In this document: positions 12,363 to 32,666 of the stretch, one piece after another | Position numbering within the stretch: position 1 is the stretch's first letter | Layout: each line of letters opens with the position of its first letter | Source of the DNA: a virus | Direction: 5' to 3' (one strand) | DNA length: 39,954 nucleotides | IMG/VR virus record: IMGVR_UViG_3300050131_000054 | Coordinates: 1 to 39,954 of that record | Program-made: the position numbers and the translations under genes | Notes under the pieces: model-generated | Told to the model about the DNA's origin: nothing | Databases searched by the model: none | The model's input: only the letters and a program-made list of their open reading frames with translations

Positions 12363-12386
12363 AATCTGCCTAGGAGTATGCTTAAA

Positions 12387-14697: not shown

Positions 14698-14722
14698 CGC
14701 ACTAGGAAAACAGGAGACTATC

Positions 14723-15460
14723 ATGAAAACCAAACTCATTCTCGCAATCGTTTTGCTGGCGGCCGCGGCTTTTGGCCAGACCGCTCTCACCCAAACCACG
14801 CTTTCGAGCGCGATTACGTCCAACCAGACCGTAATCCAGGTAGCGTCGCTCACTGGCATCGCGTGTTCGGTGACGCAGCTTCAGCCGCTCTACATCCTCG
14901 ACCCTGGCACTCGCCAAGGTGAGCTGGTGAATTGCAGTAAGACTAGCTCGACTGGCGGCAACTTCCTGACAGTGCAGCGTGGCGCTAACTTCCGGGCTGC
15001 GCACGTCACTGGCGCGATTGTGGTCATCAGCAACGCGAACAACTTCGCGCAGAGTTTCTCGCTGACCGACCCTTACGGCGCCTGCACGGCGGCCAAAACG
15101 GTGTACACGCCGCTTATCAACACCGTCAACGGGTACCAGTGGCTTTGTAGCACCCTGACGCTGTCCTGGGTACCTGGGTTCAATAACCCAAACCAACCGG
15201 CGGTGACCGCCGATGTAGCTTCGGCAGCCGGCTTGGTTGTGCCCAGCGGGCCACTTTTCGCCCTGACTGGGAATTCGGCCATTACGGGCTTCACGTTGCC
15301 GGTGGGGTTCGCCACAGGCGGCTTCTGCGCGTTTCCTACCGGGACGTTTACCTGGACGACTGCCACCAACATCGGCTTGGCCGGCACTGCCGTAGTAGGG
15401 CGCACGGTCTGCTTCACCTGGGATTGGGCTACCAGCAAATGGTATCCATCGTACGTGTAA
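14723..15460 (+). CDS. Secreted-type virion-region protein, 245 aa
   Basis: ATG with a caggag site. Residues 1-19 are a Sec signal (KLILAIVLLAAAAFGQ) with a predicted cut after AFG. The mature part is Thr/Ser/Gly-rich beta structure with ITGFTLPVGFATGGFCAFP and a late VCFTWDWATSKWYPSY, the look of a surface decoration or carbohydrate-binding domain. Unusual for a gene just after the coat gene, since phage heads assemble in the cytoplasm. Function not known. Confidence 0.6.
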   Translation: MKTKLILAIVLLAAAAFGQTALTQTTLSSAITSNQTVIQVASLTGIACSVTQLQPLYILDPGTRQGELVNCSKTSSTGGNFLTVQRGANFRAAHVTGAIVVISNANNFAQSFSLTDPYGACTAAKTVYTPLINTVNGYQWLCSTLTLSWVPGFNNPNQPAVTADVASAAGLVVPSGPLFALTGNSAITGFTLPVGFATGGFCAFPTGTFTWTTATNIGLAGTAVVGRTVCFTWDWATSKWYPSYV

Positions 15461-15480
15461 GTTATTGAAAAAGGAGAAAC

Positions 15481-15981
15481 ATGACACCAACTCAACCAGC
15501 AGTCCCGACCGCGGCTCCGGTGGTAACGCCAGTCCCGAACCCGGTGCCTGCTCCTAAACCCCTGACCACGGCGCAACTCGCCGCCGCTTCCGCTCGCTTC
15601 CCCTTGGTCGTCTTCAAGGACGGCTTTAACCAGGAACATCCTGCAATTGTGACTTGGATGAACGCGGATTCAAATGACACCGTTGACATGATCGTGTTCA
15701 ACCGCGTTGGGACATCGATTGGTCGCAGCAAAGTGGCCCATGGGTTCGACCTGAACCAGTGGCACACTTACGATGAGCCAGTTCCGCCCTACACCCCGAC
15801 GCAGTTGGCGAGCGCGCTCCAGAGCGTGAATTCAGCTCAGTCGGTTGTGGATGCTGCCCAGGAAAAGATCGACAACATGCCCGCACCCGGCACTGTCGGA
15901 GCCCAGCAGGACTTGAAGGCCGCAAAGGCTGGGTTGGCTTCCGCACAGAAGACGTACAACGCCATGAAGGCGAAGAAGTAA
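15481..15981 (+). CDS. Possible head decoration protein, 166 aa
   Basis: Strong site (aaaggagaaac). Pro/Val-rich flexible N-terminus (1-30), a compact middle domain with FPLVVFKDGFNQEHPAIVTW and MIVFNRVGTSIGRSKVAHGF (about 40-90), and an Ala/Lys helical C-terminus. Position after coat and the secreted protein suggests a head-surface protein. No family recognised. Confidence 0.5.
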   Translation: MTPTQPAVPTAAPVVTPVPNPVPAPKPLTTAQLAAASARFPLVVFKDGFNQEHPAIVTWMNADSNDTVDMIVFNRVGTSIGRSKVAHGFDLNQWHTYDEPVPPYTPTQLASALQSVNSAQSVVDAAQEKIDNMPAPGTVGAQQDLKAAKAGLASAQKTYNAMKAKK

Positions 15982-15982
15982 C

Positions 15983-16996
15983 ATGCCTTCCTACCCCATG
16001 CAAACGGGCGCGGGGGCTTTGCAGAACGTCACTCTGCAAAGCCTCATCGCTATGGTCAACGCCGTCTTCGGCACGCCGGGGCAGGCCTGGTGGGTCAACC
16101 CCTTCAGCGGGAACGATCAGAATGACGGGGAGACCCCCGCGACCGCCTTCGCCACACTGGCGCAGGCGCACTCTTCGGCGGCAGACGGCAACAATGACGT
16201 CGTGTATCTGGTTGCGAACAGCAACACCGCCAGCCAGACCACGGCCTACCAGGGCGGCACGCTCGTTTGGAGCAAGAACCTGCTTCACTTGATCGGCGTC
16301 AACGGGAGCCCGCTATTCTCTCAGCGGTCGCGCATTGCCTTCAACGCTGGCTTTGCTGCCGCCGCGAACCTTTTCACGCTTTCCGGGAGCGGCTGCCTGA
16401 TCCAGGGCATCGAGTTCTTCATGGGCGTCGCGAGCACGCTGCCTACCGGCTGCGTGAGTGTCACCGGCGCGCGAAACCATTTTGTCCGCTGCCACATCGC
16501 CGGGATGGGGAACGCCGCCAACGATATCAGCGGGGCTTATTCTCTGAACTTTGCTGGCGCGGAGGAGAATTTCTTCGAGGATTGCACCATCGGGCAGGAT
16601 ACCATCCAGCTCGGCGCGGGCACCTCTAACCAAGTTCTCAACTTCGCTGCGTCCAGCCCGGCCAATACCCGCAACTGGTTCCGTAACTGCCGGTTCATGC
16701 TCTATACCAGTTCGGCGACCGCGTGTCTGTTCGCCCGCGGCGGCGGTGTGGGCAACCTTGACCGGGAAACCGTGTTCGAGGATTGTCTATTCCTCAACGC
16801 AATCGCCTCCGGCGGCACGGGGCTCACTCACGCCATGGCCATCGCTACCGGCGGCGGCGTGGTGATCCTGACGGGCGCTAAGACTGGCCTGTACGGGGCA
16901 AGCGGTTGGAATACAAACTCGGGCGTGGTAGTCGCAACCGGTGGAATTCAGCCGACGAACACTACTTGGGGACTTGCGACACCCGTAACCAGCTAA
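15983..16996 (+). CDS. Right-handed beta-helix protein, 337 aa
   Basis: Begins its solenoid with AWWVNPFSGNDQNDGETPATAF, a classic start of parallel beta-helix proteins, then shows repeated rungs NHFVRCHI, NFFEDCTI, NWFRNCRF and TVFEDCLF. This fold occurs in phage tailspikes and polysaccharide lyases. Placed between coat and connector genes, it may be a head fibre or spike. No catalytic residues can be assigned. It ends ten bases before the gp4-like gene. Confidence 0.7.
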   Translation: MPSYPMQTGAGALQNVTLQSLIAMVNAVFGTPGQAWWVNPFSGNDQNDGETPATAFATLAQAHSSAADGNNDVVYLVANSNTASQTTAYQGGTLVWSKNLLHLIGVNGSPLFSQRSRIAFNAGFAAAANLFTLSGSGCLIQGIEFFMGVASTLPTGCVSVTGARNHFVRCHIAGMGNAANDISGAYSLNFAGAEENFFEDCTIGQDTIQLGAGTSNQVLNFAASSPANTRNWFRNCRFMLYTSSATACLFARGGGVGNLDRETVFEDCLFLNAIASGGTGLTHAMAIATGGGVVILTGAKTGLYGASGWNTNSGVVVATGGIQPTNTTWGLATPVTS

Positions 16997-17005
16997 GGAG
17001 GCGTC

Positions 17006-17743
17006 TTGGCGCTATTCTTTGGCGATCTGATTACCGACGCCCTGGTGGAGATCAACGCGACGACCCCAGGGCAAGCGCCGGACGCTGGCGACATGGCGCT
17101 GGGGCTGACGCGCGGCAACATGGTCCTCGACAATTGGACCGCGCGCAGCCTCATGCAGTACGTCACGCGGCTCGACGAGTACACGTTCCCCGGCCCGCAG
17201 AACTCCTACACCATAGGACCCAGCGGGGCGGATTTCACGGCTGACCGGCCGACTGAGATCCTAGCGGCGGCGATTGTGGACACCACCCAGAATCCCAACG
17301 TCTACATCCACATCACGGTCGTACCGGCTGACATCTGGGAGTCGTACACGGTGCTGGCCTACCAAACCAGCGTGCCGACTCAGCTCTGGTACGAGACCAC
17401 GTTCCCAAACGGGACGATCCATCTGCGCGGGGTGCCGAATAACCTCACTTACCGCCTGAGGCTGCAGACCAAGCAAAACTTGGGGCAGGCGGCCGCGCTC
17501 AATACGCAGTTCGTCTTCCCTCCTGGCTATTACAAGGCGTTCATGCTCTCGCTGGCGGAGGTGCTCTGCAACCCGTTCGGCAAGACCGGCGATATCAAGG
17601 CCGACGTGACGGCGCGGGCGCGGCTGGCTCGGGCTGACGTAGTGAGCGCCAACGGAGAACCGTTCTACATGGAACTGGATGGACTGAAGACCGGCAAAGA
17701 GAAACCATATTTCAATTGGATTTCCGGCCCCTTCCTTCAATAG
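17006..17743 (+). CDS. P22 gp4-like head-tail connector / tail accessory factor
   Basis: 245 aa from a TTG start with an excellent aaggagg site. The N-terminal pattern (LFFGDLITDALVEINATTPG, ALGLTRGNMVLDNWTAR) is that of P22 tail accessory factor gp4 and its relatives, which bind under the portal and stabilise packaged DNA. At 245 aa it is longer than P22 gp4 (166 aa), the extra length lying in a beta-rich middle. Order (portal, scaffold, coat, gp4, gp10) supports the call. Confidence 0.75.
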   Translation: MALFFGDLITDALVEINATTPGQAPDAGDMALGLTRGNMVLDNWTARSLMQYVTRLDEYTFPGPQNSYTIGPSGADFTADRPTEILAAAIVDTTQNPNVYIHITVVPADIWESYTVLAYQTSVPTQLWYETTFPNGTIHLRGVPNNLTYRLRLQTKQNLGQAAALNTQFVFPPGYYKAFMLSLAEVLCNPFGKTGDIKADVTARARLARADVVSANGEPFYMELDGLKTGKEKPYFNWISGPFLQ

Positions 17744-17749
17744 ACTTAC

Positions 17750-18100
17750 ATGAAAATACTCAAACTGTTACTTTCACTTTCGATCTTACTAGCGGCGGCG
17801 GCCCAGGTCGGCGACTCGCAGGCCGTGTGCTGCTCGATCACGATCTCCGGCAGCGCCGCGTCGGTGCAGATCAGCACTTCGTCAACGCCCGTCCACTGGG
17901 TGCAGTTGGTAGCGCCTACCGGCAACATGTCCACGGCCTATTGGTCGCTGGGGACCGTGGCGACGGCATCGGGCAACATCCTCCCGGCTGGCGCGGGGCA
18001 GTTCCTCCCGCCCAAGTCCCAGGGCGGCTACGATCTCTCGAACGTGTACGTCTACGTCGCCATGGGTGACACGCTGCGGGTATCGTGGGACCCATTCTAA
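17750..18100 (+). CDS. Small secreted-type protein, 116 aa
   Basis: Residues 1-24 form a Sec signal (KILKLLLSLSILLAAAAQ) followed by a beta-rich Ser/Thr/Gly domain with CCSITISGSAASVQI near the start. It lies between the two tail-closure genes gp4-like and gp10-like. I see no clear ribosome site before the ATG. Not recognised. Confidence 0.5.
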   Translation: MKILKLLLSLSILLAAAAQVGDSQAVCCSITISGSAASVQISTSSTPVHWVQLVAPTGNMSTAYWSLGTVATASGNILPAGAGQFLPPKSQGGYDLSNVYVYVAMGDTLRVSWDPF

Positions 18101-18121
18101 TCTCTTGAATCAAAATGGCTT

Positions 18122-19954
18122 ATGGCAAGTTCTTTCGGCTTCTTAGGTCCAGGGTATGCAACTCGCGGTCTTGTCGCGGATTGCCAGCGCTGGGTCAACA
18201 TGTACATCGAGAAGGTGGAGTCGGGTGACGACTCTAGCCAGGGCACTCCATGGGCGGCATACCTCACTCCGGGTAAGCAACTACTGTGCGCCTGTGACGA
18301 CGCGCCAATAGCCGCCGTAACCCAGTCCAATTCCTCGTTTTACGGGGCTGGTGTCAGCCTCTTTTTCGTGGTTTCCGGCTCGACCCTCTACGCGATCACG
18401 GCGACGTTCAACAGCGGCACCGGCCTCTGGGAAGGAACCGCAACCAGCATCGGGGCTGTGGACAAGCAGATCATCCAGGGGACCGGCGGCCAGCTCTTCC
18501 CGGCCCAAATTATAGTAATAAATCCCAATTTATTGTTCGTGGTGGCGAACGGCAGCGCCTATGTGGCGGCGTTCGGGTCGCCGATCACCAGCAGCGTGCT
18601 CAACCCCACAACCGGAGGCGGCGGCGCTGGCTACGCGGGGGGCGACACCGGGACGGTGGACGTGCCAGGCGGTGGCATCCCCGCTGCCTATATCGTGAAC
18701 ACCGTGGACCTGGCAGGCGCGGTCCTCACCTATACCCTGACCTCACCTGGGACCGGATACAGCGTGTTCTCTGGCGCTTACGCCACTACCACAGAGGGCG
18801 GCGCGCAGCCGGGGAACGGCGGTGACTTCACCATTGAGATCGACACGGTTGGCGCTGCAGCGTGGTCCATCCAGCAGCAAATAATCCCTGACGGTGGCGG
18901 CGGTAACTTCATCCGGTCAGCCACTTGGATGGACGGCTATGTGATTGTATCGCTCGCGCCAAACGAAGCCGATCCCACGCGCCGAACCTTCTATATTTCA
19001 GGGTTGAACGTCCCCACCCTGTGGAACGCTCTGGAATTCGGCGTAAAAGAGTCCAACTCCGACCCGATGATGGCCGTGTACGCAGCTTACGAGATTCTGA
19101 TCCTTTTTGGCTCGCAGACCATTGAACTGTGGCAGGATTCCGGCAATGCCCTGTTCCCCTATCAACGCCTGCCGGGAGGGGGGGTGATCGAAGCCGGCTT
19201 GGCATCAACCTGGGCGGTCGCGAAACTGGACGGAACGGTTTGCTGGCTGGGGATGGACGCCCGCGGGCAGTACACCGCTTGGCAGCTTACCGGCACCACG
19301 CCTATTCGGATCTCGAACCACGCCATTGAGAACGCCTGGAGCCAGTACAACGTCGCCGGAGCGAGCGCGTACTCCTACGTCGAAAATGGGCACTTCTTCT
19401 TTTGCCTGCACTTCCCGATCCCCGACAAGACGTGGGTTTACGACTCGACCATCGGGCCGGCGCTGGGCTGGCATGAGCGCGAGTACTGGGACGGATCAAG
19501 CTCGCACGCCGACATCGGGCGGTATCACGGATTCTTCCCGGAGATCGGGCACTGCGTAGGGGATTATCGGAACGGCAATCTCTACATCCAAAGCCTTCAG
19601 TTCCTGCAAGACAACTGCGCGGCGATCCGGCGTATCCGGGTGGCACCGCACATCGTCTCTGGGCTGAGTTGGATTTACGTGGACCTCTACCGCCTGCACT
19701 GCCTGCAAGGGATCGTGCCCGCCACCGGGCCAGGGTCGGCCCCGACGTGTACGCTGGAAATATCGAACGATGGCGGTCAGAACTATGGCTCGCTGCTCTC
19801 GCGGCCGCTGGGGGCTCTCGGGCAGACTCGCTGGGTCACGGAATGGTATCGGATGGGGCGCGCGCGGGATCGCGTGGTGCGCTGGACGCTCACGGACCCG
19901 ATTGACATGGTACTAGTGGACCTCTACGCCCAGGTGAGTAAAGGCGGGGGGTAG
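18122..19954 (+). CDS. P22 gp10-like packaged DNA stabilisation protein with inserted domain
   Basis: 610 aa against about 470 in P22. N-terminal pattern SFGFLGPGYATRGLVADCQRW-NMYIE and later IELWQDSGNALFPYQRLPGG, AVAKLDGTVCWLG and WVYDSTIGPALGWHEREYW match the gp10 family, which plugs the portal channel and docks the tail needle. About residues 160-243 form a separate Gly/Thr-rich block (NPTTGGGGAGYAGGDTGTVD, GTGYSVFSGAYATT), a module also seen in other phage tail proteins, which explains much of the extra length. Confidence 0.75.
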   Translation: MASSFGFLGPGYATRGLVADCQRWVNMYIEKVESGDDSSQGTPWAAYLTPGKQLLCACDDAPIAAVTQSNSSFYGAGVSLFFVVSGSTLYAITATFNSGTGLWEGTATSIGAVDKQIIQGTGGQLFPAQIIVINPNLLFVVANGSAYVAAFGSPITSSVLNPTTGGGGAGYAGGDTGTVDVPGGGIPAAYIVNTVDLAGAVLTYTLTSPGTGYSVFSGAYATTTEGGAQPGNGGDFTIEIDTVGAAAWSIQQQIIPDGGGGNFIRSATWMDGYVIVSLAPNEADPTRRTFYISGLNVPTLWNALEFGVKESNSDPMMAVYAAYEILILFGSQTIELWQDSGNALFPYQRLPGGGVIEAGLASTWAVAKLDGTVCWLGMDARGQYTAWQLTGTTPIRISNHAIENAWSQYNVAGASAYSYVENGHFFFCLHFPIPDKTWVYDSTIGPALGWHEREYWDGSSSHADIGRYHGFFPEIGHCVGDYRNGNLYIQSLQFLQDNCAAIRRIRVAPHIVSGLSWIYVDLYRLHCLQGIVPATGPGSAPTCTLEISNDGGQNYGSLLSRPLGALGQTRWVTEWYRMGRARDRVVRWTLTDPIDMVLVDLYAQVSKGGG

Positions 19955-19970
19955 ATGTTTTACGGGGAAC

Positions 19971-20261
19971 ATGATAGTCTGCTGTTCCCCGATGAGAGCC
20001 GCCAGAACCAGAAAGCAGCGAAGACGTATTGCCTTCGAGGAGGAGCAAAGGTCCCTCTATACCAAATATATGCACTCTCAGGCCTGGAGGGACTTCCGGA
20101 ATAAGATTCTGGCGGACCGTGGCATGATGTGCGAATCCTGCGGTTCATTTGAAGGTCACCGGGAAGTTCACCATCTGACCTATGCGAACCTCGGCCATGA
20201 ACAACCCGAAGATGTGCTGGTTTTATGTGGGAATTATCACTTTGACTCCCTTGGAGATTAA
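19971..20261 (+). CDS. HNH endonuclease, probably degenerate
   Basis: 96 aa. YMHSQAWRDFRNKILADRG, CESC (Cys54, Cys57), EVHHLTYANLGHE (His67-His68) and EDVLVLC are standard HNH features. The usual LCxxCH end is LCGNYH here: Tyr89 replaces the last zinc Cys, and the protein stops seven residues later. Zinc binding, and so activity, may be lost. ATG 19971 is the first start; 19995 is an alternative. It lies between tail-plug and ASCH genes, a typical place for a free-standing nuclease insertion. Confidence 0.7.
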   Translation: MIVCCSPMRAARTRKQRRRIAFEEEQRSLYTKYMHSQAWRDFRNKILADRGMMCESCGSFEGHREVHHLTYANLGHEQPEDVLVLCGNYHFDSLGD

Positions 20262-20267
20262 GAAACG

Positions 20268-20789
20268 ATGAAAACACTGACTCTTACAGAGCCGTGGGCC
20301 TCTCTGGTGGCAATCGGGGCTAAGCAGATTGAAACGCGATCATGGAGAACCTCGTACCGGGGCCAGTTGGCGATTCATTCCGCAAAAGGCTTCCCGAAAT
20401 ATGCCAAAGAGATGCTGTCCGAGCCAATCGTTTATGAATCCTGGATGCAGTTTGGGCTGAAGCAGAAATTTCCAGGACGCGCCGGGTGTGGATTCCCGCA
20501 TGGCAGCGTGATCGCGATAACGACGCTCCTGGACTGCATCCCCACGGCAGCGATTGCGGATCATCCGCGATGGGGCGAGCGGATCAACCGTCGCGAGAGC
20601 TTCTTGGGGGATTACACGCCGGGTCGCTTCGCTTGGATTCTTGGGACAGCGATGGCAATAGATCCAGACCCATCCAAGGGAGCGCTTGGCTTGTGGGAAT
20701 GGGACTCAGAATCATATTGGAAACGGCGTGAGGATTTTGGGCCAAATGGCGATGCAACCACGGCAGGGTTTATGAGGCAGGGGAGTTAA
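20268..20789 (+). CDS. ASCH-domain protein
   Basis: 173 aa. LTLTEPWASLVAIGAKQIET with SWRTSYRGQLAIHSAKG, then GSVIAITTLLDC and LGDYTPGRFAWIL follow the ASCH pattern closely. ASCH proteins bind RNA or modified nucleosides; some hydrolyse N4-acetylcytidine. In phages they may alter host RNA or regulate translation, but the target here is unknown. The Lys, Glu and Arg residues in GAKQIETRSW fit the pocket positions. It forms an accessory pair with the HNH gene inside the tail cluster. Confidence 0.75.
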   Translation: MKTLTLTEPWASLVAIGAKQIETRSWRTSYRGQLAIHSAKGFPKYAKEMLSEPIVYESWMQFGLKQKFPGRAGCGFPHGSVIAITTLLDCIPTAAIADHPRWGERINRRESFLGDYTPGRFAWILGTAMAIDPDPSKGALGLWEWDSESYWKRREDFGPNGDATTAGFMRQGS

Positions 20790-20790
20790 G

Positions 20791-20861
20791 ATGATAGTTC
20801 CCTTTTATGTCATAGTTGCCATATGAAGAGGCACCCATGGAAGTGGATTGACCGCCGCTAA
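20791..20861 (+). other. Chain of two micro-ORFs
   Basis: MIVPFYVIVAI (20791-20826) overlaps MKRHPWKWIDRR (20823-20861), whose TAA overlaps the ATG of the next large gene (TAATG). The first is hydrophobic, the second strongly basic. They may be micropeptides or leaders coupling translation of the tail protein. Low confidence, but every junction is an overlap. Confidence 0.25.
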
Positions 20862-22726
20862 TGCCCTTCCCAGTCACAATCGATGCCTCCGTGGGCGGCG
20901 CGGAGCAACCCGGTAAGTTCTCGACCTTCTTCAACTCGCCGAACCGATATCAAGTCCAATTCGTGCTGGACGCGCCGGACGGGCAGGCCCTACTAGCGGT
21001 GTTCAAGAGTGCAGACAGCGGGAATACCTGGGCAGAGGTCGATTATGCGGGCCGCGTCTCGGTGCTTTTCGAGGGACCTGGGTCCACTTCCCCTTATACG
21101 TGCTGCCAAGTGGGAACGGCCATCTACATCGTCTACTTAAATCCAACCTTTATTTGTACGATGACCTCTTTCGACATGGCATCGGACACATGGAGCGTGC
21201 TGAGCGTGGATACACCGTACCCGCCCTTCAGCCCCTACCCCCAATCCGGAGAAGGCGGGTTCTTACTTGGGCAGTACGCCTGCTCTTACCGCGCCTCGAC
21301 TGGCGACATTTTGTTTGTGCTGGCGGGTGACGGCATCACGGGGCTGGGTGCCGTGCCTCATTCGATTTGCTGCTTCAATGTTTTCAATATCGCGGGTTCC
21401 GCGTGGAACGGTAGCTGGACAGACCTCGATTATGTCGATTATGCCGATATCGCCACTTGGGACCTGATCCCATGCGGGATGGTGACGGACCCTACTTCGG
21501 GACGCACCACGGTGTTCATGCAGCAAGTGGCGCGCACCGGACCCGGACCGGCTGGTACAACTTCCTTTTCAAGCGCTGGCACGTTCACCTGGGACGTGCC
21601 GCTTGACGCGCCAGCTACCGCGGTGGTCGAGCGGTGGGGGGCTGGCGGCGGGGCTCAATCTGGCACAGGTGGGCAGCGCGCGGGGGGCGCCGGTGCTTAT
21701 AATCGCACGAACGCCGCGGCGATCACTGCCGGGGGCACCGAGACAATCGTGGTGGGCGCTGGCGGGGCTACGGGCTCGGACGGGGGCAGCACCACAGCGC
21801 TGGGAGATACGGCCGCTGGCGGTGCGCATGGGACTGCGCTGGCAGGCGGTCTAGGCGGAGCGGCTAGCGGCGGCGATGTGGCCTTTGCTGGCGGCAACGG
21901 TGGAAGCGACGGCGGTACCGTAAACGGCGGCGGCGGCGGCGGCTCCGGCCTCAATAACGCCGCAGGCGGCGACGGTCAGGACGGTCAGCCGGGGCTCAAC
22001 CCACCGCGCGCCAATGGCGGGATAGGGACCGGGAACGGCGGCAACGGTGGCGCAGTTCTCATCACGGACGATGGAGACCCTGGACAAAGCCCGGGCGGAG
22101 GCGGGGGCGGCGATACCAATGTGGGACCAGGGACCAGCGGCGTGGGTGCTGACGGAGGGGTGAACATTTCCTGGATTGCGGTGCGCAACACCCACGATTC
22201 CCGCATGTACCAGCAGTCGATTGAGGCGGATAATTCGCTAGGGGTGATCACGGAAATCACGCAGGGAGCCGCGTCGCCGCGCGATCAAGGCTCAGCCCCG
22301 GTACCGATTTCCTTCGACGCCGGCCAGTTCAACGGGACCATCTTCATCGCCTTCACCGGGGCGAACGGGACCGGCTCGACCGATGTGGCCGTGGGGCAGG
22401 GCGCGACGGCGAATCCAGTCGCGCTATCTTTCCAGGACTTCGACTCCGGGAATGGTGGCGACGGCGTAGACGCCTGCCCAAGTGTCTGTGCGGGCACCGT
22501 GGCGATCTATTGCTGCTACATCTCCGGGCCAACCGCGGGGCCAGTGGCTTTTCTCTACCGTGCCGATCCGGGTCTGGGGTTTGGATCTCCAGTGAGTATC
22601 GGGACGCTGTCTCTGCCTGACGTACGGGAATTTGGCCGGCTGCAGTCTTCCGTTCTTGGCACGTTGCCCGAGATCACGTTCGGCACTCCCACGGCCGCGA
22701 TAATAAAATTTAACGCGCCTGGATAA
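20861..22726 (+). CDS. Tail/receptor-binding protein with Asp-box and Gly-rich insertion
   Basis: 621 aa. The N-terminal part has an Asp-box (SADSGNTW, residues 50-57) and beta-propeller-like strands. At about residues 226-435 the fold is broken by a Gly-rich block that opens with SAGTFTWDVP and WGAGGG and is packed with GGNGG, GGGGGG and GGDG runs, like polyglycine sandwiches in phage adhesins. Propeller-like sequence resumes at RNTHDSRMYQQSIEADNS and continues to the end. Probably a receptor-binding or fibre protein. Role inferred. Confidence 0.6.
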   Translation: MPFPVTIDASVGGAEQPGKFSTFFNSPNRYQVQFVLDAPDGQALLAVFKSADSGNTWAEVDYAGRVSVLFEGPGSTSPYTCCQVGTAIYIVYLNPTFICTMTSFDMASDTWSVLSVDTPYPPFSPYPQSGEGGFLLGQYACSYRASTGDILFVLAGDGITGLGAVPHSICCFNVFNIAGSAWNGSWTDLDYVDYADIATWDLIPCGMVTDPTSGRTTVFMQQVARTGPGPAGTTSFSSAGTFTWDVPLDAPATAVVERWGAGGGAQSGTGGQRAGGAGAYNRTNAAAITAGGTETIVVGAGGATGSDGGSTTALGDTAAGGAHGTALAGGLGGAASGGDVAFAGGNGGSDGGTVNGGGGGGSGLNNAAGGDGQDGQPGLNPPRANGGIGTGNGGNGGAVLITDDGDPGQSPGGGGGGDTNVGPGTSGVGADGGVNISWIAVRNTHDSRMYQQSIEADNSLGVITEITQGAASPRDQGSAPVPISFDAGQFNGTIFIAFTGANGTGSTDVAVGQGATANPVALSFQDFDSGNGGDGVDACPSVCAGTVAIYCCYISGPTAGPVAFLYRADPGLGFGSPVSIGTLSLPDVREFGRLQSSVLGTLPEITFGTPTAAIIKFNAPG

Positions 22727-22729
22727 AAG

Positions 22730-23197
22730 ATGCCGCCGCCTGGAATCACTTTTGAAGTAACCGCGCTGCGCGCTGGGCCTTTCGGCAATGCCATCGTGTT
22801 TCTACTGCTCGGCGATGAAGGGGGGCCGGACTACTCGTCTTCGGTCACGGGCACGACCATCACGACCACGGTGGGCACCACCGGCGGCGATACCACTATC
22901 GACTGGGCCGCGATCGCGGCGCTGTTCAACGCTGACTCTGGCGTGAACGGGCTGGCGGTGATGGATGGAGCCTCAGGCGATAATACCGGGCCAGCTTCAT
23001 TGGGCGGCGGTGGGTTTCTTGAGGGCGGCTCTTACGGCTTGGGGCTAGGGCAGTTTTACACGGGAGCAGCCGCGCCGCCGCCGCCCGCGCCCTGCACGTC
23101 CGTGATGTCGATGGTGACGCTGGTGGGCAACCCCACGCCGAGCTACGCGGGTCAGGCAACGCCTGAGACCGCCGATCCTGTAATCTCTCAACTATGA
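22730..23197 (+). CDS. Tail-cluster protein, 155 aa
   Basis: Pattern FEVTALRAGPFGNAIVFLLL-GDEGGPDYS, Thr-rich beta strands, then WAAIAALFNADSGVNGLAVM and a Pro-rich linker at about residues 114-119. Looks like a small beta-rich virion protein. Overlaps the next gene through ATGA. Not recognised. Confidence 0.45.
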   Translation: MPPPGITFEVTALRAGPFGNAIVFLLLGDEGGPDYSSSVTGTTITTTVGTTGGDTTIDWAAIAALFNADSGVNGLAVMDGASGDNTGPASLGGGGFLEGGSYGLGLGQFYTGAAAPPPPAPCTSVMSMVTLVGNPTPSYAGQATPETADPVISQL

Positions 23198-23904: not shown

Positions 23905-23905
23905 A

Positions 23906-24646
23906 ATGTCAGCCGTAGTCGTCAACCTTTTCACGGTCCCGCCCGCCGCTCCAGTACCAGGACTAGCCACGGGCGGCGGCACCAGCGGCGCAGGGAGTCC
24001 GTCTAGTAGCCCCAGCACCGCAGCGCCAACCACGCCCACAGGCTCGACGCCCGCGCCAGTAGTGCCGCCGATCGGTGGACCGCAGACCGTGACGGACTTC
24101 CCGGCGACGCCAGATCAGGGCAACCAAGTCATCAAGGGCGCGGTGCTCTACCAGTTCGTCGGCGCAACGCAGTACGCGGGCATCCCCGGATTCTGGGAGC
24201 CGGTTGTTTCGCCCGCGCCGTCGCTGCAAGGGACGCACGCGGACCGCGCCAGCTTCTCGGCTTCGGCTTACCCAGCGGGTACGCAGTTCTTTGAAACGGA
24301 TCGGCAGGTGGTCTGTCAGACAGACGGCACGAACTGGCTCTATTGGTCTGGTGCGATGAGCGGCGTGCTGGCGGCGCTCCCGACGGATCTCGGCGTCAAC
24401 GATGCCGGATTCGTTTACCAGGCACTCGACTTTAAGCACCTCTACAACTGGACGGGCAGCGGGTGGACCTTCGCGTCTACTGATGCAGGTTCCGGCCAGT
24501 TGATCGTGGATCATCCCGGATTCTTTCTCAGCGATGGCTTCTACGGGCTGTGCGACGGCAGCACTTACTCTGTGGCGCAAAGTGACGGCACGACCGCGAA
24601 CGTGACGACGGCGGTTCTGAGCCCGCCGACGTACATCCGAAGATGA
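23906..24646 (+). CDS. Putative tail fibre / collar-type protein, 246 aa
   Basis: Low-complexity Gly/Ser/Pro/Thr N-terminus (20-60), a domain with GAVLYQFVGATQYAGIPGFWEP and FFETDRQVVCQTDGTNWLYWSG, a pattern frequent in phage fibre proteins, then near the end HPGFFLSDGFYGLCDGSTYSVA, resembling the GxxxCDGS of tail-collar domains. Suggests a receptor-facing or fibre-attachment role. Confidence 0.5.
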   Translation: MSAVVVNLFTVPPAAPVPGLATGGGTSGAGSPSSSPSTAAPTTPTGSTPAPVVPPIGGPQTVTDFPATPDQGNQVIKGAVLYQFVGATQYAGIPGFWEPVVSPAPSLQGTHADRASFSASAYPAGTQFFETDRQVVCQTDGTNWLYWSGAMSGVLAALPTDLGVNDAGFVYQALDFKHLYNWTGSGWTFASTDAGSGQLIVDHPGFFLSDGFYGLCDGSTYSVAQSDGTTANVTTAVLSPPTYIRR

Positions 24647-24671
24647 GGCACGAAAGTCCTAGTACTTTGCT

Positions 24672-25298
24672 ATGATTAGCCCAATGAGCGCCGCATCAAT
24701 GCCTGTCGGGGTGCGAACCGGCTACTCGCAACCAACCGAAGACGTGCAAGCCGGAGAGATTGCGATACGCGCGCTGCGTCCTGAGGACGTGCCAGCGCTG
24801 TGGATCTGGCTGAACGAGTACCCGCGCTCGAATTTCGATGACTACGGGCCGCAATCGCTTGAAGCATTCACTGCTGAAATTGTCGCTCGCATGAACGCAG
24901 GCGAAGTGATTGCAGCGTTCCTGCATGACGGCAAGTTCATCGGCGTGTGCGGCTACGCGCAGATCACGGAACGCTTGGGCATGCTGCGCGGCATCTGCTT
25001 CTCGAAGGCGGTACACGGCACCGGACTCGCCCCCGCGGCCGTGCATCGCTTTCTTGAAAAGATTCTCGCGCCGGGGAAGGTGCAGAAGATTCAAGCCATG
25101 CACTTCTCGGACAACCTCCGTATCAAAAAGTTTCTGCGCAAGCAAGGGTTCACGCACGAGGGGCGTCTCGAAGCGCACACGGTGCGCGGCGGCGTGCCCA
25201 CCGACATGACCTTAGTCGCGCTCCACCGTGCCAAGCAAACTACTGGCGATGATTTCCTGAAGACGCGCAAGAACCGGGGTAAGGAAGAGGTCCAGTAG
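24672..25298 (+). CDS. GNAT-family acetyltransferase
   Basis: 208 aa. EIAIRALRPEDVPALWIWLNE, then EVIAAFLHDGKFIGVCGYA, LRGICFSKAVHGTGLAPAAV (the acetyl-CoA loop region) and NLRIKKFLRKQGFTHEGRLE follow GNAT motifs C, D, A and B. It would transfer an acetyl group from acetyl-CoA; the substrate is unknown. Relatives occur among tail genes of some podoviruses. Start uncertain: 24672 or the in-frame ATG at 24684, neither with a clear ribosome site. Confidence 0.7.
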   Translation: MISPMSAASMPVGVRTGYSQPTEDVQAGEIAIRALRPEDVPALWIWLNEYPRSNFDDYGPQSLEAFTAEIVARMNAGEVIAAFLHDGKFIGVCGYAQITERLGMLRGICFSKAVHGTGLAPAAVHRFLEKILAPGKVQKIQAMHFSDNLRIKKFLRKQGFTHEGRLEAHTVRGGVPTDMTLVALHRAKQTTGDDFLKTRKNRGKEEVQ

Positions 25299-26173
25299 TG
25301 CCGCTCGGGGGGCTTGTCACTGCGGGGGTCGGTTCCGTCGTTAGCGGCCTATTCGGCATGAGTGCTGCGCAGAGCGCCGCTAAGGCCCAAGCTGCCGCCG
25401 CTCTCAAGGCGCAGGGCGTTGCCGATACAAACAAACAGCAGGGTCTCGATACCCTCGGTTCCAACACCACCGCGTCCAACACGGCGCTGAACAACCTCTC
25501 GACCAACGTCAACACCAATACCCTGCAAGCGAACGCGCAGTATAGCCCCTACTCGCAAGTGGGCACGACTGCGGCTGGCGGCCTCAATACCGCGTTGCAG
25601 AATCCGTTTTCGTTCAACATCTCGCAGGACCCTGGTTATCAGTTCCGCATGCAGCAAGGCCAGCAGGCCGTGGAGCAGAGTGCGGCGGCGGCGGGCGGGG
25701 CGACGGGTGGCGCGGCGCTGAAGGCGCTGACGCAGTACGGCCAGGGCTATGCGTCGAACGAGTATCAGAACGCCTTCAACCGCAACCAGACGCAGCTGCA
25801 GAACTTATTCCAGGGCGCTGGCGTCGGCATGAATGCGTCGAACTCCGTCAGCAACAATCTGAACCAGGGAAGCGCGCTGCAATCCGGCATCGTGGGCCAG
25901 CAAGTCGGGAACCTCACGAACAATAGCGACCTGACCGCTAACATACTTGGACAGAACACCAACGCTGCTTCGCAGAATTACACTGGCGCGGGGAACGCGC
26001 AAGCGGCCGGCATTGTGGGGCAAGCTAACGCGCTCACGGGGGCGGTGAACGGCCTCGGGCAGACGGCGAACCAAGCGTTCTTGATGAACCTCCTGCAAGG
26101 CGGGGGGGCTGGACAAGAAAGCTCGGCGCTGAACCAATTGAATAGCGGCCCGATCCCGTCGCCCTACGAGTAG
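25298..26173 (+). CDS. Putative DNA ejection / internal virion protein, 291 aa
   Basis: GTG start in a TAGTG overlap. N-terminal hydrophobic Gly/Ala segment (LVTAGVGSVVSGLFGMSAAQ), then a long Ala/Gln/Asn-rich helical body with YSPYSQVGTTAAGGLNTALQ and DPGYQFRMQQGQQAVEQSAA, a pattern found in phage proteins placed where P22 has gp7/gp20/gp16. First of three such genes. Ejected with the DNA to help cross the envelope, by analogy. Confidence 0.6.
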   Translation: MPLGGLVTAGVGSVVSGLFGMSAAQSAAKAQAAAALKAQGVADTNKQQGLDTLGSNTTASNTALNNLSTNVNTNTLQANAQYSPYSQVGTTAAGGLNTALQNPFSFNISQDPGYQFRMQQGQQAVEQSAAAAGGATGGAALKALTQYGQGYASNEYQNAFNRNQTQLQNLFQGAGVGMNASNSVSNNLNQGSALQSGIVGQQVGNLTNNSDLTANILGQNTNAASQNYTGAGNAQAAGIVGQANALTGAVNGLGQTANQAFLMNLLQGGGAGQESSALNQLNSGPIPSPYE

Positions 26174-26175
26174 CC

Positions 26176-26442
26176 ATGCCCATTGACGCGGAGTTTCTAA
26201 AATGGGCAGATTACCAGACGAAGATTTCGATACCGGAACTCGATGCTCTTGGGATAGCTTTTCTGGATTTGGTGGTTCATGATCCTTCGCCTGGAATGCT
26301 AACTTCCGCGATCCCACTGAAGGAACCTCGCGCCGTTAGCGCATCGGTGATAAAGCGCGATCCAGCGGGGAGCGGCATTGAGATTTTGATTTATTTCAAG
26401 TATGGCAAGTGGGTATTTCAGAGTCAGAGATTATGCCCATAG
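26176..26442 (+). CDS. Small hypothetical protein, 88 aa
   Basis: Starts MPIDAEFLKWADY, with a mixed soluble domain (LDALGIAFLDLVVHDPSPGM, EILIYFKYGKWVFQ). Lower GC than its neighbours and squeezed between two ejection-type genes, overlapping the next. Looks like an accessory insertion. Not recognised. Confidence 0.45.
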   Translation: MPIDAEFLKWADYQTKISIPELDALGIAFLDLVVHDPSPGMLTSAIPLKEPRAVSASVIKRDPAGSGIEILIYFKYGKWVFQSQRLCP

Positions 26443-28067: not shown

Positions 28068-29347
28068 GCCTGCCCCCCGGCGCCGTGCTGGATAAAGCGG
28101 CGCTGCCGCCGGGGGCCGTGCTTGATGCACCAGCACCCACCCCGAAATCCTTCACGGATCAGCTAGGCGACTTTGGCTCGCACGCCTGGGACATGATCAA
28201 GGGTGGTGCGCAAGGGCTAATGCACCCCATCGACAGCATCTCGTCGGTGCTGCGGAATACGTCGGACAGTTTGGACAAGGCCAAGGAGGCGTACAAGGCC
28301 GGGGATACCGGCGCTGCGCTGGCGCATCTCAAGGACGCGGTGCCCGTGCTCGGGCCCATCGCCAAGCAGATGCGCGAGGAAGGCGACAGGGGCGACCTCG
28401 GGGCGGAGGCTGGCGACTTAGCCGGATTCATGACGCTTGGCAAAGCTGGAGAACTCCTACCGAAGGTGCCCGGGGTGGTCAAGGGTGCAGCGGAAGCCGC
28501 TCCCGGCGTTGCTACCGCCGTGGGCGAGGCGGCGAAGGCTGGCGGCAAGGATGTCGCTATAGGAACGGGCAAGGTGGCCGCTGGCACGGCGCTGCTGAAG
28601 GCTGGGGGCCTCGGTGAATCGGTTGGGGGCTACGAACTCGCTAAAAGCGGGGTTAGGCAAGTCACTGGCGGCCTCAAATCCGGCTACGCCGCCCTTCGCC
28701 AGTCCCTAGCCGATACCGCCGCCGCGAAGGCCGCTGAAGCGCAGCCTGAGCCGCCAATGGCGGGCGCAGTGCCGATGCAGGGGCCGAGCGCCGCCGCGCC
28801 TAGCAATGCCACTCCAGCACCCACCGCGATACCGCCCACTGGCTCCGTCCAGCTTCCCGCGCCGGATCAGGAGCTATTCGGCACGCTTAAGAAGCCGGTC
28901 GCTGCGGCGGACGCCCCGCATCCTGAGGGTGCCTACCCCATCCCGGACGCAGAGCGCACGCAGCCCGGCTCTGTCGCCCCCAAGGAAAGCTACCAGCGGG
29001 CCGCCCAGACGGTTAAGGGACGCGCTCTGGCACGTTACCTGCGCCTCGCCCCCGATGGTGGTATCACCACCGAGGAAGCTGGCCGCATGACGCCTGAGCA
29101 GTGGAACATGGCAGCGCAGGCGGCGGGCGTCAACGCTCCTAGCCCCGCTAGCGTCCAGGTGGCACTCACGGAACTCGACAATCTGTACAAGGCCAAAGGG
29201 TCCGCGCAAATCGACAAGGCGGTTGCCGAGGGTAACACTCCTAAGGCCAACTTCTACGTGCAAAAGGCCGCGCAGGAGAGCTACCTGTCGAAGAACCCTA
29301 AGGCGCTGGCAATCGCGCAGCAACTCGCGGAGGAAATGGCGAAATGA
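28052..29347 (+). CDS. Putative DNA ejection protein with LPPGAVLD repeats, 431 aa
   Basis: N-terminus has two LPPGAVLD units (residues 7-14 and 18-25), a variant of the LPPGFVLD motif seen in phage virion proteins. Then a helical part (LRNTSDSLDKAKEAYKAG) and a Gly/Ala amphipathic stretch at about 142-188 that could insert in membranes. Pro/Ala-rich linker at about 230-280, helical C-terminus. Third of the ejection trio. Ends in an ATGA overlap with the tail fibre gene. Confidence 0.55.
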   Translation: MGSPVSLPPGAVLDKAALPPGAVLDAPAPTPKSFTDQLGDFGSHAWDMIKGGAQGLMHPIDSISSVLRNTSDSLDKAKEAYKAGDTGAALAHLKDAVPVLGPIAKQMREEGDRGDLGAEAGDLAGFMTLGKAGELLPKVPGVVKGAAEAAPGVATAVGEAAKAGGKDVAIGTGKVAAGTALLKAGGLGESVGGYELAKSGVRQVTGGLKSGYAALRQSLADTAAAKAAEAQPEPPMAGAVPMQGPSAAAPSNATPAPTAIPPTGSVQLPAPDQELFGTLKKPVAAADAPHPEGAYPIPDAERTQPGSVAPKESYQRAAQTVKGRALARYLRLAPDGGITTEEAGRMTPEQWNMAAQAAGVNAPSPASVQVALTELDNLYKAKGSAQIDKAVAEGNTPKANFYVQKAAQESYLSKNPKALAIAQQLAEEMAK

Positions 29348-30525
29348 AACGCTTGCTTTTGATTCTCGGCTTCGCGATGGTGTGCGCCGCGCAGAACGTG
29401 CCGTTCCCGTCAGGCTCGATGGTGCAGCTTTTCGATAACAACGGCGCGCCGTGCTCAGGCTGCCTCCTACATACGTACGTGGCGGGCGGCACTACGCCGC
29501 AGACCACCTACCAGACGCCCGCCGGCAGCGCCAACACGAACCCCGTGGTGCTTAGCAGCGCTGGTACGGCGAACATTTGGACGATTCCCGGCGTGTCCTA
29601 CCGCTTCGACCTCTACAGCGCCGCCGCGGTTCTCATTCGCACAATCGACAACGTACCTGGCGGCTCGGTGCTGGGACAATCGACCGTCACAGCTAACTTC
29701 GTGCTTGCGGGACCAACTACTGGGGCCGGTGCCACGCCCACCTTTCGCGCGCTAGTCGCCGCTGACTTCGCCGGGCTCTTCGCTGGGACGACTTGCACAA
29801 ACAAATTCCTGTCCGCGCTCGATTCATCGCTGGCGGGCACCTGCACTTCGCCGGTAATAGCAAGTGCGCAGTTCGCCAACCAGGGCACCACCACCACCGT
29901 GCCGCACGGCAACGCGGCTGGCAACCCAACGTGGGGCCCTGTGGTAGGCGCGGACTTCGGGGCTTCCATCGCGGCGCGGACTTCTTTCGGCAATCCATCA
30001 GCGAGCGCGGCGGCTCCGGGGTTCAGCACCACGCAGGACGCATTGGCATATCAGACCGCCGAGATTCCCAGTTTTGTATTTGTCGCATCGGACTTCACCA
30101 CTAGCGGCGTTGGGACGGCGCTCGAAGCGATCACGGGGCTAGCGTTCACTATCCCAGCCTCGATCGCACTAAACGTGCCGTTCTCCTGCCACTTCATTTA
30201 CCAGCAGGGCGTAGCGAACGTCGGGGTAGCCTTCGGGTTGCAAGACGCGACGGTGTCGCCCACCAATATAAACGCGGCGGGCGTAATGCACACCAGTACC
30301 ACGGCATCAACGGCTGGCGTGCTGATCGCGCTCGCGAGCACTACTGCGACGGCTATCGTCACGGCAACGCCGGGAGCAACGGCAACCGACTACGTTGTGG
30401 ACCTCTCGGGCGTGGTAGAAGCGCCCTCCAACGTCTCAAGTAGCGTTGTAAGCTTTAGGGTATCGACGGCCACGGCGGCGGATCTCGTGACTGTGCGCCG
30501 TGCTTCATGGTGTCGTTTCAATTAG
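29344..30525 (+). CDS. Tail fibre with head-binding-type domain and Sec signal
   Basis: 393 aa. Residues 1-17 (KRLLLILGFAMVCAAQ) are a clear signal peptide. Residues 18-105 match the fibre-base pattern: MVQLFDNNGAPCSGCLLHTY, AGGTTPQTTYQTPAG, NPVVLSSAGTANIWTIPGVS and FDLYSAAAVLIRTIDNVPGG. A later ATPTFRALVAADFAG block is another frequent phage fibre motif. The rest is Thr/Ser/Ala-rich beta. Should be the host-contact fibre; a Sec signal in front of a virion-attachment domain is unexpected. Confidence 0.7.
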   Translation: MKRLLLILGFAMVCAAQNVPFPSGSMVQLFDNNGAPCSGCLLHTYVAGGTTPQTTYQTPAGSANTNPVVLSSAGTANIWTIPGVSYRFDLYSAAAVLIRTIDNVPGGSVLGQSTVTANFVLAGPTTGAGATPTFRALVAADFAGLFAGTTCTNKFLSALDSSLAGTCTSPVIASAQFANQGTTTTVPHGNAAGNPTWGPVVGADFGASIAARTSFGNPSASAAAPGFSTTQDALAYQTAEIPSFVFVASDFTTSGVGTALEAITGLAFTIPASIALNVPFSCHFIYQQGVANVGVAFGLQDATVSPTNINAAGVMHTSTTASTAGVLIALASTTATAIVTATPGATATDYVVDLSGVVEAPSNVSSSVVSFRVSTATAADLVTVRRASWCRFN

Positions 30526-30532
30526 GAGAATC

Positions 30533-31243
30533 ATGGAAAAGCTAAAGTGGGGAGTCTTCGTCGCGGTCACGGCGCTCGCGGCGGTCATGATGGTCCACCC
30601 GGAGTGGACGCACGCGCAGTATACGCCGCCAAACGGTGGCGGCTCTGGCGGAAGCTGTGGATCTCTCGGCGGCGACGTCACCGGCACCTGCGCGGCGAAC
30701 ACCGTGACCAAAATTCAGAACGTGGCTGTGGGCGGCGTCCAAGGGACTGCCACAAACCCGAAGGTCATGGCCGCGGGAACGATCCTTCCTGGCATTGGAT
30801 TTGTTTTTTGCCAAGACTCTGCGGGCACAGTCACGACAGCGAACTGCAAAGCCGGCACCACCAACCAGAACCTACGAACGATGGGCTACCATTTTGACGG
30901 CGGCGGCTCAGCGCTCTCTGGAACGATTACTTATTGCAGCCAAGTCCCGATCACGGGTACAATCCTCGGCTGGCACATTGACGCAGATCAATCTGGATCG
31001 GCGACCTTCGCCGTACGCTCAGTGGTCTTCGGTTCGTATACGGGGACTGCGGGTTTCGCTGGGTACACCGACGTCACCGGGGGCGGCACGGCTCCGATCC
31101 TCTCCTCGGCGGTCACGGCCACATCGGCCAATCTCACAAGCTGGGTGACGTCGGTGAACGCCACCGATGAATATTGCTTCCAGCTTTCCAGTCCGGCGAC
31201 AATTACGTGGGTGAACGTAGTTATCAATTTCACGGCGATCTAA
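30533..31243 (+). CDS. Secreted-type tail-region protein, 236 aa
   Basis: ATG 30533 with an attaggagaa site. Residues 1-29 form a Sec signal or membrane anchor (WGVFVAVTALAAVMMV ... THAQ). Then a Gly-rich stretch (GGGSGGSCGSLGGDVTG) and a beta-rich domain with GTITYCSQVPITGTILGWHI and a final ATITWVNVVINFTAI, typical of jelly-roll-like tail fibre tips. Role inferred from neighbours. Confidence 0.5.
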   Translation: MEKLKWGVFVAVTALAAVMMVHPEWTHAQYTPPNGGGSGGSCGSLGGDVTGTCAANTVTKIQNVAVGGVQGTATNPKVMAAGTILPGIGFVFCQDSAGTVTTANCKAGTTNQNLRTMGYHFDGGGSALSGTITYCSQVPITGTILGWHIDADQSGSATFAVRSVVFGSYTGTAGFAGYTDVTGGGTAPILSSAVTATSANLTSWVTSVNATDEYCFQLSSPATITWVNVVINFTAI

Positions 31244-31244
31244 C

Positions 31245-32666
31245 ATGAAGCCATCCAAACTCCTGCTCTTCGTCCTGTGCGCGCGCCTAGCCTTCGGTGC
31301 GCTCTCGACCACTGTCGTTTGGGAAGTGCGCCCGACGAACGGCCTCGACACGAACGGGGGCGGCTTCGATCCCGGAGTCGTCAGTCCCGGTACTGATTTC
31401 TCACAGCAGAACTCCGTACAGGTTTCTTACACTGACTTGGTGGTGGGGGCGACGACCACGCAGATAACAAGCGCCGCGCACGCCTTCGATTCAACCTACC
31501 CTGGGAACCTGATCCACATCGCGAGTGGCACGGGCTGTACGACCGGCTGGTTTGAAGTTGTCAGCGTATCGATAATCACGGCAACGCTGGATCGCTCGGC
31601 TGGTACCGCGGCGAGTGTTTGTACGGGCAGTCTAGGCGGCGCGCTCAAAACACTGGCCCAGCTCAACACCAATATGAGTCTCGATCAGCAGGGCTGGGCA
31701 AAGGCTGAGTCTACGTTGGTCATGGGGAGGATCAACTGGGCAAGCTCGGGTGGTTTTGCATCAGTCCAGGGTTATACGACCACCCGTGGCGACGGCGGTT
31801 ATTTTACAGCCCAGATGAACGCAAATGACATTTTTTGGAACTTTACGAATACAGGCTTCAACGAAACATTCCGGAATTTCATCTTGGATTTTAACAACCA
31901 CACTGGCGGAAATGTCGTAGCTACGAACGGATGCTGTTACACTTTTTCCAATATCAAAGTCATCAACGCCGGAGCCAACCAGGCTTTCAATTTTGGGAGT
32001 GTGACCCGCAGTTCTTGTTCGTTCTGCTACGCCACTGGCTCTAGTAGCACGACGGGTGTCTTTAGTTTAGCGGGTGGAATTGTTTGCTATTCCTGCATTG
32101 CCTACTCCAACACCACGACGGGGTCCGTGTTTGATCTATCTACCGACGGCGGGCAGGGGGGAGCATTTTGCATCAACTGCATTGCCGCAAACAATACGAG
32201 TTCGGCTCGGGCTTTCCGAACTAGCGGGGGCTCGGATGCGTCCCCAGTCTACATAGTGGGCGCAATTGCCGTGAACAACGGTGGGGATGGCATTTCTATC
32301 ACCAACCATAATTTTTCGGTCTTCATCTTGAACAGTATCTTCGTGTCCAACTCGGGCTTCGGAATCAACTCGACCACCACGATGCCCAACGGAGCGAACA
32401 CGATCAGCAACAATGCCTTCTTCGGAAACACTTCGGGAGCGCGGAACAAAATCAGCGCTAGACCGGGGGACGTGACCCTGAGCGGGAATCCCTTCACCAA
32501 TTCGGCTGGAAACGACTTCAGTCTTAATACTGGCGCGGGGGCTGCTCTGAAAGCAGCGGGTATTCCAGGGGTGCTGGCGATTGGTGGAACTGGTTTTCTC
32601 GATATTGGCGCGTTGCAGCATCAGGCCGTCGCGGGCGGTGGAATTTCAGGGTCACCAATCCAATGA
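31245..32666 (+). CDS. Tailspike-like right-handed beta-helix protein with signal peptide
   Basis: 473 aa. Residues 1-18 (KPSKLLLFVLCARLAFGA) form a Sec signal. The mature N-terminus has VWEVRPTNGLDTNGGGFDPG with SPGTDFSQQN, a signature of a large family of phage and bacterial beta-helix proteins. Rungs with Asn/Ser/Gly ladders follow, ending with NPFTNSAGNDFSLNTGAGAA and GFLDIGALQ. Probably a polysaccharide-binding or degrading tailspike; active residues not assigned. Confidence 0.65.
   Translation: MKPSKLLLFVLCARLAFGALSTTVVWEVRPTNGLDTNGGGFDPGVVSPGTDFSQQNSVQVSYTDLVVGATTTQITSAAHAFDSTYPGNLIHIASGTGCTTGWFEVVSVSIITATLDRSAGTAASVCTGSLGGALKTLAQLNTNMSLDQQGWAKAESTLVMGRINWASSGGFASVQGYTTTRGDGGYFTAQMNANDIFWNFTNTGFNETFRNFILDFNNHTGGNVVATNGCCYTFSNIKVINAGANQAFNFGSVTRSSCSFCYATGSSSTTGVFSLAGGIVCYSCIAYSNTTTGSVFDLSTDGGQGGAFCINCIAANNTSSARAFRTSGGSDASPVYIVGAIAVNNGGDGISITNHNFSVFILNSIFVSNSGFGINSTTTMPNGANTISNNAFFGNTSGARNKISARPGDVTLSGNPFTNSAGNDFSLNTGAGAALKAAGIPGVLAIGGTGFLDIGALQHQAVAGGGISGSPIQ

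Follow-up and report, generated by a model that had tools for sequence, protein, structure and literature searches.

The coat proteins of filamentous phages (M13 pIII and pVIII) are made with cleavable signal peptides (SPs) and are exported by the host before assembly, and SAR endolysins, spanins and exclusion lipoproteins (Rz1, Llp and Cor) are tailed-phage proteins that use the Sec pathway. In phage P22, the tailspike joins the finished heads last, and this joining also works in vitro. The phages of Porphyromonas gingivalis encode exported substrates of signal peptidase I with the host-type glutamine at position +1 of the cleavage site, the "Q-rule" (PMC10367356). Tunturi 1 and Tunturi 2 are podoviruses that have been cultured on Tunturiibacter psychrotolerans X5P2 and form plaques, and the text of the paper that describes them does not mention signal peptides (PMC11924767). 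In this study, which was based on a viral stretch of 39,954 bases (IMG/VR virus record IMGVR_UViG_3300050131_000054, referred to as the window) and on its relatives, we confirmed from the N-terminal sequences that five late-module proteins, named here after their start positions (14723, 17750, 29344, 30533 and 31245), as well as 2840, bear predicted Sec SPs and that 4101 is a putative lipoprotein. The window is a fragment of a P22-like podovirus of an acidobacterial lineage, whose phages belong to soil Acidobacteria, and in its structural module the portal, coat, gp4-like, gp10-like and ejection genes follow in the order of this type (PHROGs). We propose, with a probability of roughly 55%, that the spikes and decoration proteins of this lineage are exported by Sec, acquire disulfide bonds in the periplasm and join the virions at or after lysis.

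Judged by its domain and synteny, 29344 is a tailspike. Its residues 18-110 form a domain that was found in five INPHARED phages with the window query and in 36 with a better query, several of which are annotated as tailspike, and, among the matches listed, most of the phages with this domain also turned up among those that have a homologous coat. The gene follows the same order as in phage PBR31, in which the tailspike lies after three internal proteins and before the lysis genes; in a prophage of Acidicapsa dinghuensis (L135), the tailspike-domain gene lies between the gp10-like and ejection genes. An ordinary tailspike begins at its virion-binding domain and has no SP; 29344 has one. None of about 84 domain homologues from outside the lineage (L020-L104) has an SP, their Met standing 0-4 residues before the domain, and the predicted cleavage of the 16-residue SP in the window falls where these homologues have their starting Met. 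The sequences thus place the putative SP precisely at the natural phage N-terminus of the tailspike, and the proposal that it sits directly before a fibre-base domain holds, the domain at the cleavage site being the N-terminal domain of a tailspike. Ten further loci of the same lineage carry an SP on the domain, six in virus contigs (G001, G003, G004, G007, G009 and G011) and four in bacterial genomes (L132, L134, L135 and L136). There was one tailspike-domain match per genome in four whole genomes and one per contig in the seven virus contigs that had a match, and no SP-less spare copy of the domain was seen among them. When viral contigs were searched with the 29344 protein by itself, no relative was found, but an alignment search did find them. 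AlphaFold modelled 29344 well in the N-terminal domain only (pLDDT, the predicted local distance difference test, of 53 over the full length).

The SP is accompanied by cysteines. All 11 SP-bearing tailspike domains have exactly two, in three placements (PC-x-GC, GC...NC and LC...SC), while among the 87 SP-less domains 83 have none, four have one and none has two (Fisher p=9e-15, uncorrected for relatedness). On the domain tree, the SP label needs two changes, which is compatible with a single origin of the SP, so the 11 copies do not count as independent events. When the cysteines were counted from the domain onward, their total was even in 10/11 of the SP-bearing chains; the SP-less chains with any cysteine were even in 19 cases and odd in 37. 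The paired cysteines suggest that disulfide bonds are formed. The original prediction had named homologues without the signal as grounds for rejecting it, and these do exist, about 84 for the 29344 domain and 11 for 31245. They do not refute the finding because their Met sits at the point at which the window SP would be cleaved and because the lineage conserves the SP together with the new cysteines.

The second line of evidence comes from 14723, whose gene directly follows the coat gene. The coat was used as an SP-blind bait for finding relatives, so the members found with it are unbiased evidence; part of the 22-member alignment came from a search with patterns that overlap the cleavage site, and the cysteine counts of the window, L002, L003, L015 and L019 were read from the alignment. 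In this alignment, the SP (22/22), the glutamine at +1 and the cysteine pair C121/C142 are invariant and the number of mature cysteines is even in 22/22. The SP gene stands directly after the coat in the window and in L002, L003, L011, L014-L019 and L132-L136. When bacterial genomes were searched with the coat only, all five near full-length matches with downstream sequence had the SP protein next to them, including that of Acidicapsa dinghuensis. With the 11 tailspike-type loci, these results bear out the conservation of the signals in relatives. The AlphaFold model of the mature protein has a pLDDT of 88.9, and its weak and partial Foldseek matches were to phage tail-tube, AP22 tailspike and Pa223 capsid-spike structures as well as to many tail-fibre models; a search of INPHARED with 14723 gave nothing. 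In two relatives, membrane-protein genes (L014:12286-13317, 343 residues, and L114:2917, about 309 residues) separate the coat-adjacent SP gene from the gp4-like gene. For the two families, the sequences reveal conserved predicted SPs that are placed at the natural N-terminus and are accompanied by paired cysteines.

The three remaining late-module proteins are less uniform. Homologues of 17750 with an SP were found in three close relatives (L002, L015 and L019), and the same slot holds other SP-bearing proteins in L011 and L115; the mature part of the L015 homologue had no match in INPHARED. The 30533 protein has a weak match to a virion structural protein of S-CAM3, which is itself without an SP. 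In the case of 31245, five relatives have an SP (two of them near-identical) and 11 do not, their Met standing directly before ALS..VWEVRP or a similar sequence; one more SP-less relative, L182, is doubtful. In this family too, the SP ends at the natural N-terminus of the SP-less members. A search of INPHARED with 31245 gave nothing.

With a slash at the predicted cleavage site, the N-termini are MKTKLILAIVLLAAAAFG/QTAL (14723), MKILKLLLSLSILLAAAA/QVGD (17750), MKRLLLILGFAMVCAA/QNVP (29344), MEKLKWGVFVAVTALAAVMMVHPEWTHA/QYTP (30533), MKPSKLLLFVLCARLAFG/ALST (31245) and MKLAALFLFALSVHA/QAVI (2840), and the GTG-started 4101 begins with VKLPAVFVLALFLAG/CGAS, which contains a lipobox. The SPs were called with an in-house heuristic at a threshold of 8.5, which was calibrated on 38 E. 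coli K-12 proteins; it recovered 6/6 of the known SP proteins and picked up none of the soluble cytosolic ones, though two membrane proteins were called as well. An n-region with Lys or Arg, a hydrophobic core and an A-x-A cleavage motif were present in the window SPs, weakly in 31245, which the heuristic missed (Arg in the h-region) and whose relatives show clear SPs at the same place. The heuristic agreed with the published SignalP count for phage P26218 (exactly one SP gene), an additional TTG-started match being spurious. In ten proteobacterial P22-like control phages, almost no SPs were present in the corresponding region. The SPs are not due to chance because the same genes in relatives carry them while their sequence diverges. 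Mis-called starts for 14723, 29344 and 30533 were ruled out by a Shine-Dalgarno sequence at the SP start: the gene in the 30500 open reading frame (ORF) starts with the ATG at 30533, with AGGAG four bases upstream. The 2840 gene starts at an internal ATG of the 2708 ORF. The original prediction of SPs on these five proteins, with the trait extending to 2840 and to the lipoprotein 4101, was therefore upheld, the N-termini being as described and recurring in relatives, and its remark that the export of virion-module proteins is unexpected stands as well. The hydrophobic N-termini could also serve something other than export, either as uncleaved anchors in the membrane or the particle, or because internal starts give a cytoplasmic virion form. 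The heuristic cannot tell SPs from membrane anchors, and the assembly of tailed phages is normally cytoplasmic. We consider this quite improbable given the A-x-A/Q-type cleavage motifs, the glutamine at +1 that is invariant while the SP sequence diverges and the paired cysteines that accompany the SP; moreover, the internal ATG and GTG codons near the cleavage sites of the spike genes have no clear Shine-Dalgarno sequence. Export by Sec and cleavage by signal peptidase I are, in contrast, strongly suggested.

The relatives of the coat in bacterial genomes are mainly in Acidobacteriota, namely in four metagenome-assembled genomes (MAGs) of Acidobacteria/Acidiferrales and in the isolate Acidicapsa dinghuensis 4GSKX. 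Further matches were in one betaproteobacterial MAG, which may be mis-binned, and, weak and partial, in one Bacteroidetes MAG (L137). The Acidicapsa prophage encodes the SP-tailspike as well as the coat-adjacent SP protein, with one tailspike-domain match in the genome; it also has a tRNA-Met between its portal and scaffold genes (L135:8817-8890, ARAGORN). A sample of 18 stretches from the Acidicapsa genome contained 40 SP-like proteins without further membrane segments, and the phage SPs look like those of the host because 20/40 of these have glutamine at +1. Host-like SPs with this glutamine would be expected if the genes were captured from host secreted proteins. However, the mature domains are those of phage tailspikes, fibres and decoration proteins with many SP-less phage homologues, so at most the SP was borrowed; for 14723, 29344 and 31245, the phage homologues and fold matches rule out domestication. 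This origin is largely refuted and we give it hardly any weight. Among the explanations that the original prediction had offered, the best fit is assembly with a step in the periplasm or at the surface; secreted decoys are a less favoured possibility, and the domestication of host genes was rejected for these three proteins.

The trait is also present outside this lineage. Tunturi 1 and Tunturi 2 (L168 and L167, in the latter 9802-22744) are not among the matches listed to the window coat in INPHARED (30 of 37) and their gene order differs; they belong to a lineage unrelated to the window phage. In both, SPs were called on gp12, gp13 (tail fiber in Tunturi 2), gp14 (tail spike/pectin lyase), gp16 and gp17 (virion structural protein), and not on the portal, the major head protein, gp31, gp32 or the lytic tail protein. 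The mature proteins of Tunturi 2 contain 20 (gp12), 10 (gp13), 20 (gp14), 1 (gp16) and 34 (gp17) cysteines. The structural genes that were checked in Tunturi 3 (L169), which grows on the same host strain, and in the siphovirus Tunturi 4 have no SP. The trait is therefore one of phage lineages and not something that the host imposes, because Tunturi 3 is without SPs on the same strain; a host property alone is ruled out by its SP-less fibres and by nine coat relatives with an SP-less coat-adjacent protein. Among the control phages, the exceptions with an SP were PBR31 orf035 ("putative structural protein", L020:16148-16957) and one gene of P26218. The BcepC6B gp19 ("tail fiber protein", L138:5001-6074) is a homologue of orf035 with an SP of its own and four mature cysteines, and both proteins have homology to tail fibres of Klebsiella and Pectobacterium phages in their C-terminal part.

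These same proteins bear on the main rival explanation, in which the exported proteins are not part of the particle but bind receptors or degrade polysaccharides, and mask or strip receptors (superinfection exclusion or protection of the progeny) or clear slime, possibly by way of a type II secretion system. In orf035 and gp19, the T7-like C-terminal part of a tail fibre is kept and the SP replaces the virion-binding N-terminus, and gp14 and gp17 of the Tunturi phages have pectate-lyase-like and beta-helix matches. The authors of the Porphyromonas study likewise considered that the exported phage proteins, whose function is not known, may modify the surface (PMC10367356). However, in the 29344 family the mature N-terminus still has the complete N-terminal tailspike domain, with no other copy found, and Tunturi 1 and 2 form plaques though their large fibre and spike genes bear SPs. 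We regard secreted effectors of this kind as possible, on balance unlikely. Should the proteins be secreted and absent from the particles, they would represent a class of phage effectors hidden in structural operons.

In the assembly route that we prefer, the tailspike and the capsid-decoration proteins, which are the outermost and last-added parts of the particle, would be made with cleavable host-type Sec SPs. After export, the cut by signal peptidase I would restore the original phage N-terminus, usually headed by glutamine. In the periplasm, the spikes and decorations would acquire disulfide bonds as they fold, and they would stay there during the filling of the cytoplasmic heads with DNA; lysis would then mix the two pools and the parts would attach spontaneously. 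We only infer attachment to the virion at or after lysis, because the N-terminal tailspike domain is retained, because a single copy of it was found per genome and because the P22 tailspike is added last and also in vitro. Whether some Caudoviricetes have a separate two-compartment route of this kind, with cytoplasmic heads and Sec-exported spikes and decorations, we hold to be evenly balanced; it would be used by two or more acidobacterial lineages that are not related to each other, and perhaps by some phages of Proteobacteria. Several observations weigh against the route. In the textbook view, the whole assembly of tailed phages takes place in the cytoplasm. The SPs are calls of the heuristic and not of SignalP, and no virion proteomics or N-terminal sequencing of these proteins was found in the literature, so their presence in particles is unproven. 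The 11 SP-bearing tailspike domains may be one clade, which would make the effective sample smaller than the counts. The whole-chain parity of cysteines is weak, since several chains end at contig ends and L142 is odd (seven cysteines), and in the 31245 family the number of cysteines does not track the SP and the parity test fails. One member of the lineage (G010/L122) has the tailspike domain with neither SP nor domain cysteines. In the nine coat relatives mentioned above (L004-L010, L012 and L013), the protein encoded next to the coat is a different one, about 155 residues long and without an SP, and the distant locus L137 gave no SP call.

If the spikes are in the particles, they would be an exception to the rule by which the assembly of tailed phages is confined to the reducing cytoplasm. 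Phages could then use the oxidative folding of the host for their receptor-binding proteins, and infectious maturation would be separated in time from head filling; the route could also explain the cysteine-rich spikes of environmental phages. In practice, such spikes may misfold when they are expressed in the cytoplasm, where they lack disulfides, and annotation pipelines may take them for secreted proteins of the host. The cultured Tunturi 1 and 2, with the SP-less Tunturi 3 on the same strain, offer a natural comparison, and the claim is testable now.

The coordinates of the window features are collected in Table 1. Pfam was uninformative on the SP-bearing window proteins. At 4101-4740, a small hydrophobic protein comes after the GTG-started putative lipoprotein, and these could be lysis or exclusion genes. 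An acetyltransferase-like protein is encoded within the structural module (24672-25298), and acetyltransferase genes are likewise annotated in PBR31 and Tunturi 1-3. The ORFs at 1-213 and 992-1801 have MKRGTPRHPKTYALAEALSIPLPHAVGILEMLW in common, which is a partial duplication near the contig start.

Table 1. Features of the window discussed in the text (positions in the 39,954-base stretch; a slash marks the predicted cleavage site).
Feature	Position	Strand	Basis or remark
Small SP-bearing protein, two Cys, outside the structural module	2840..3196	+	N-terminus inspection
Putative lipoprotein, GTG start, LAG/C lipobox	4101..4526	+	N-terminus inspection
P22-like portal protein, no SP	9557..11791	+	phrog_156, E=4e-87
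P22-like major coat protein, no SP	13450..14697	+	phrog_283, E=4e-49; SP-blind bait for relative searches
Predicted Sec SP of the coat-adjacent protein, 18 residues	14723..14776	+	SP in 22/22 aligned members, +1 Gln invariant
Mature coat-adjacent protein, spike/decoration-like: N-terminal beta-barrel, invariant C121-C142, variable C-terminal domain	14777..15457	+	AlphaFold, Foldseek, Cys counts
gp4-like tail accessory protein (by position), no SP	17006..17743	+	phrog_12985, E=1e-21
Small SP-bearing protein between the gp4-like and gp10-like genes	17750..18100 (SP 17750-17803)	+	SP-bearing homologues
gp10-like head-closure (Hc3) protein, no SP	18122..19954	+	phrog_578, E=2e-59
DNA-ejection protein, no SP, no Cys	25298..26173	+	phrog_598, E=4e-16; Cys count
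Predicted Sec SP of the tailspike, 16 residues, ...VCAA/Q	29344..29391	+	No counterpart in about 84 homologues outside the lineage
Tailspike N-terminal domain with added C-x-x-C pair (GAPCSGC)	29392..29673	+	Homologues in 36 INPHARED phages
Distal tailspike/fibre part	29674..30525	+	Full-length homologue in G001 (L116), 65% identity; poorly modelled
SP (30533-30616) and virion-structural-type protein	30533..31243	+	phrog_10330 "virion structural protein", E=1e-6
SP (31245-31298) and mature chain ALSTTVVWEVRPT...	31245..32666	+	Relatives with and without SP

Spikes and fibres are proteins of a known kind, and no report of SPs on the tail spikes or fibres of tailed phages was found in the open-licence literature; SP-bearing spikes on tailed phages are undescribed there, and the nearest described case is that of the Q-rule proteins of the Porphyromonas phages. 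Unlike the filamentous phages, which leave the cell by extrusion through the membrane and without lysis, the window represents a tailed double-stranded DNA phage with a P22-like head. Rz1, Llp, Cor and the SAR endolysins are lysis or exclusion proteins and not beta proteins of the virion module, although 4101 may group with the lipoproteins. The Porphyromonas Q-rule proteins are products of unknown-function genes with a potential role in outer-membrane modification and are not spikes or fibres (PMC10367356). The Tunturi 1 and 2 operon is similar to the window in its late fibre and spike genes with host-type SPs, glutamine at +1 in 4/5 and many cysteines; it differs in belonging to an unrelated lineage and in having five SP-bearing genes in one operon. 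With the P22-like tailspikes of Shewanella phage X14 and Xanthomonas phage PBR31 (orf034), 29344 shares the N-terminal domain and its conserved Gly, Pro, Tyr and Asp positions, and with that of PBR31 also the neighbourhood after the internal or ejection proteins and before the lysis genes. However, the known tailspikes of the X14 and PBR31 type begin with Met at the domain and have no SP and almost no domain cysteines, whereas that of the window has a predicted SP and a cysteine pair.

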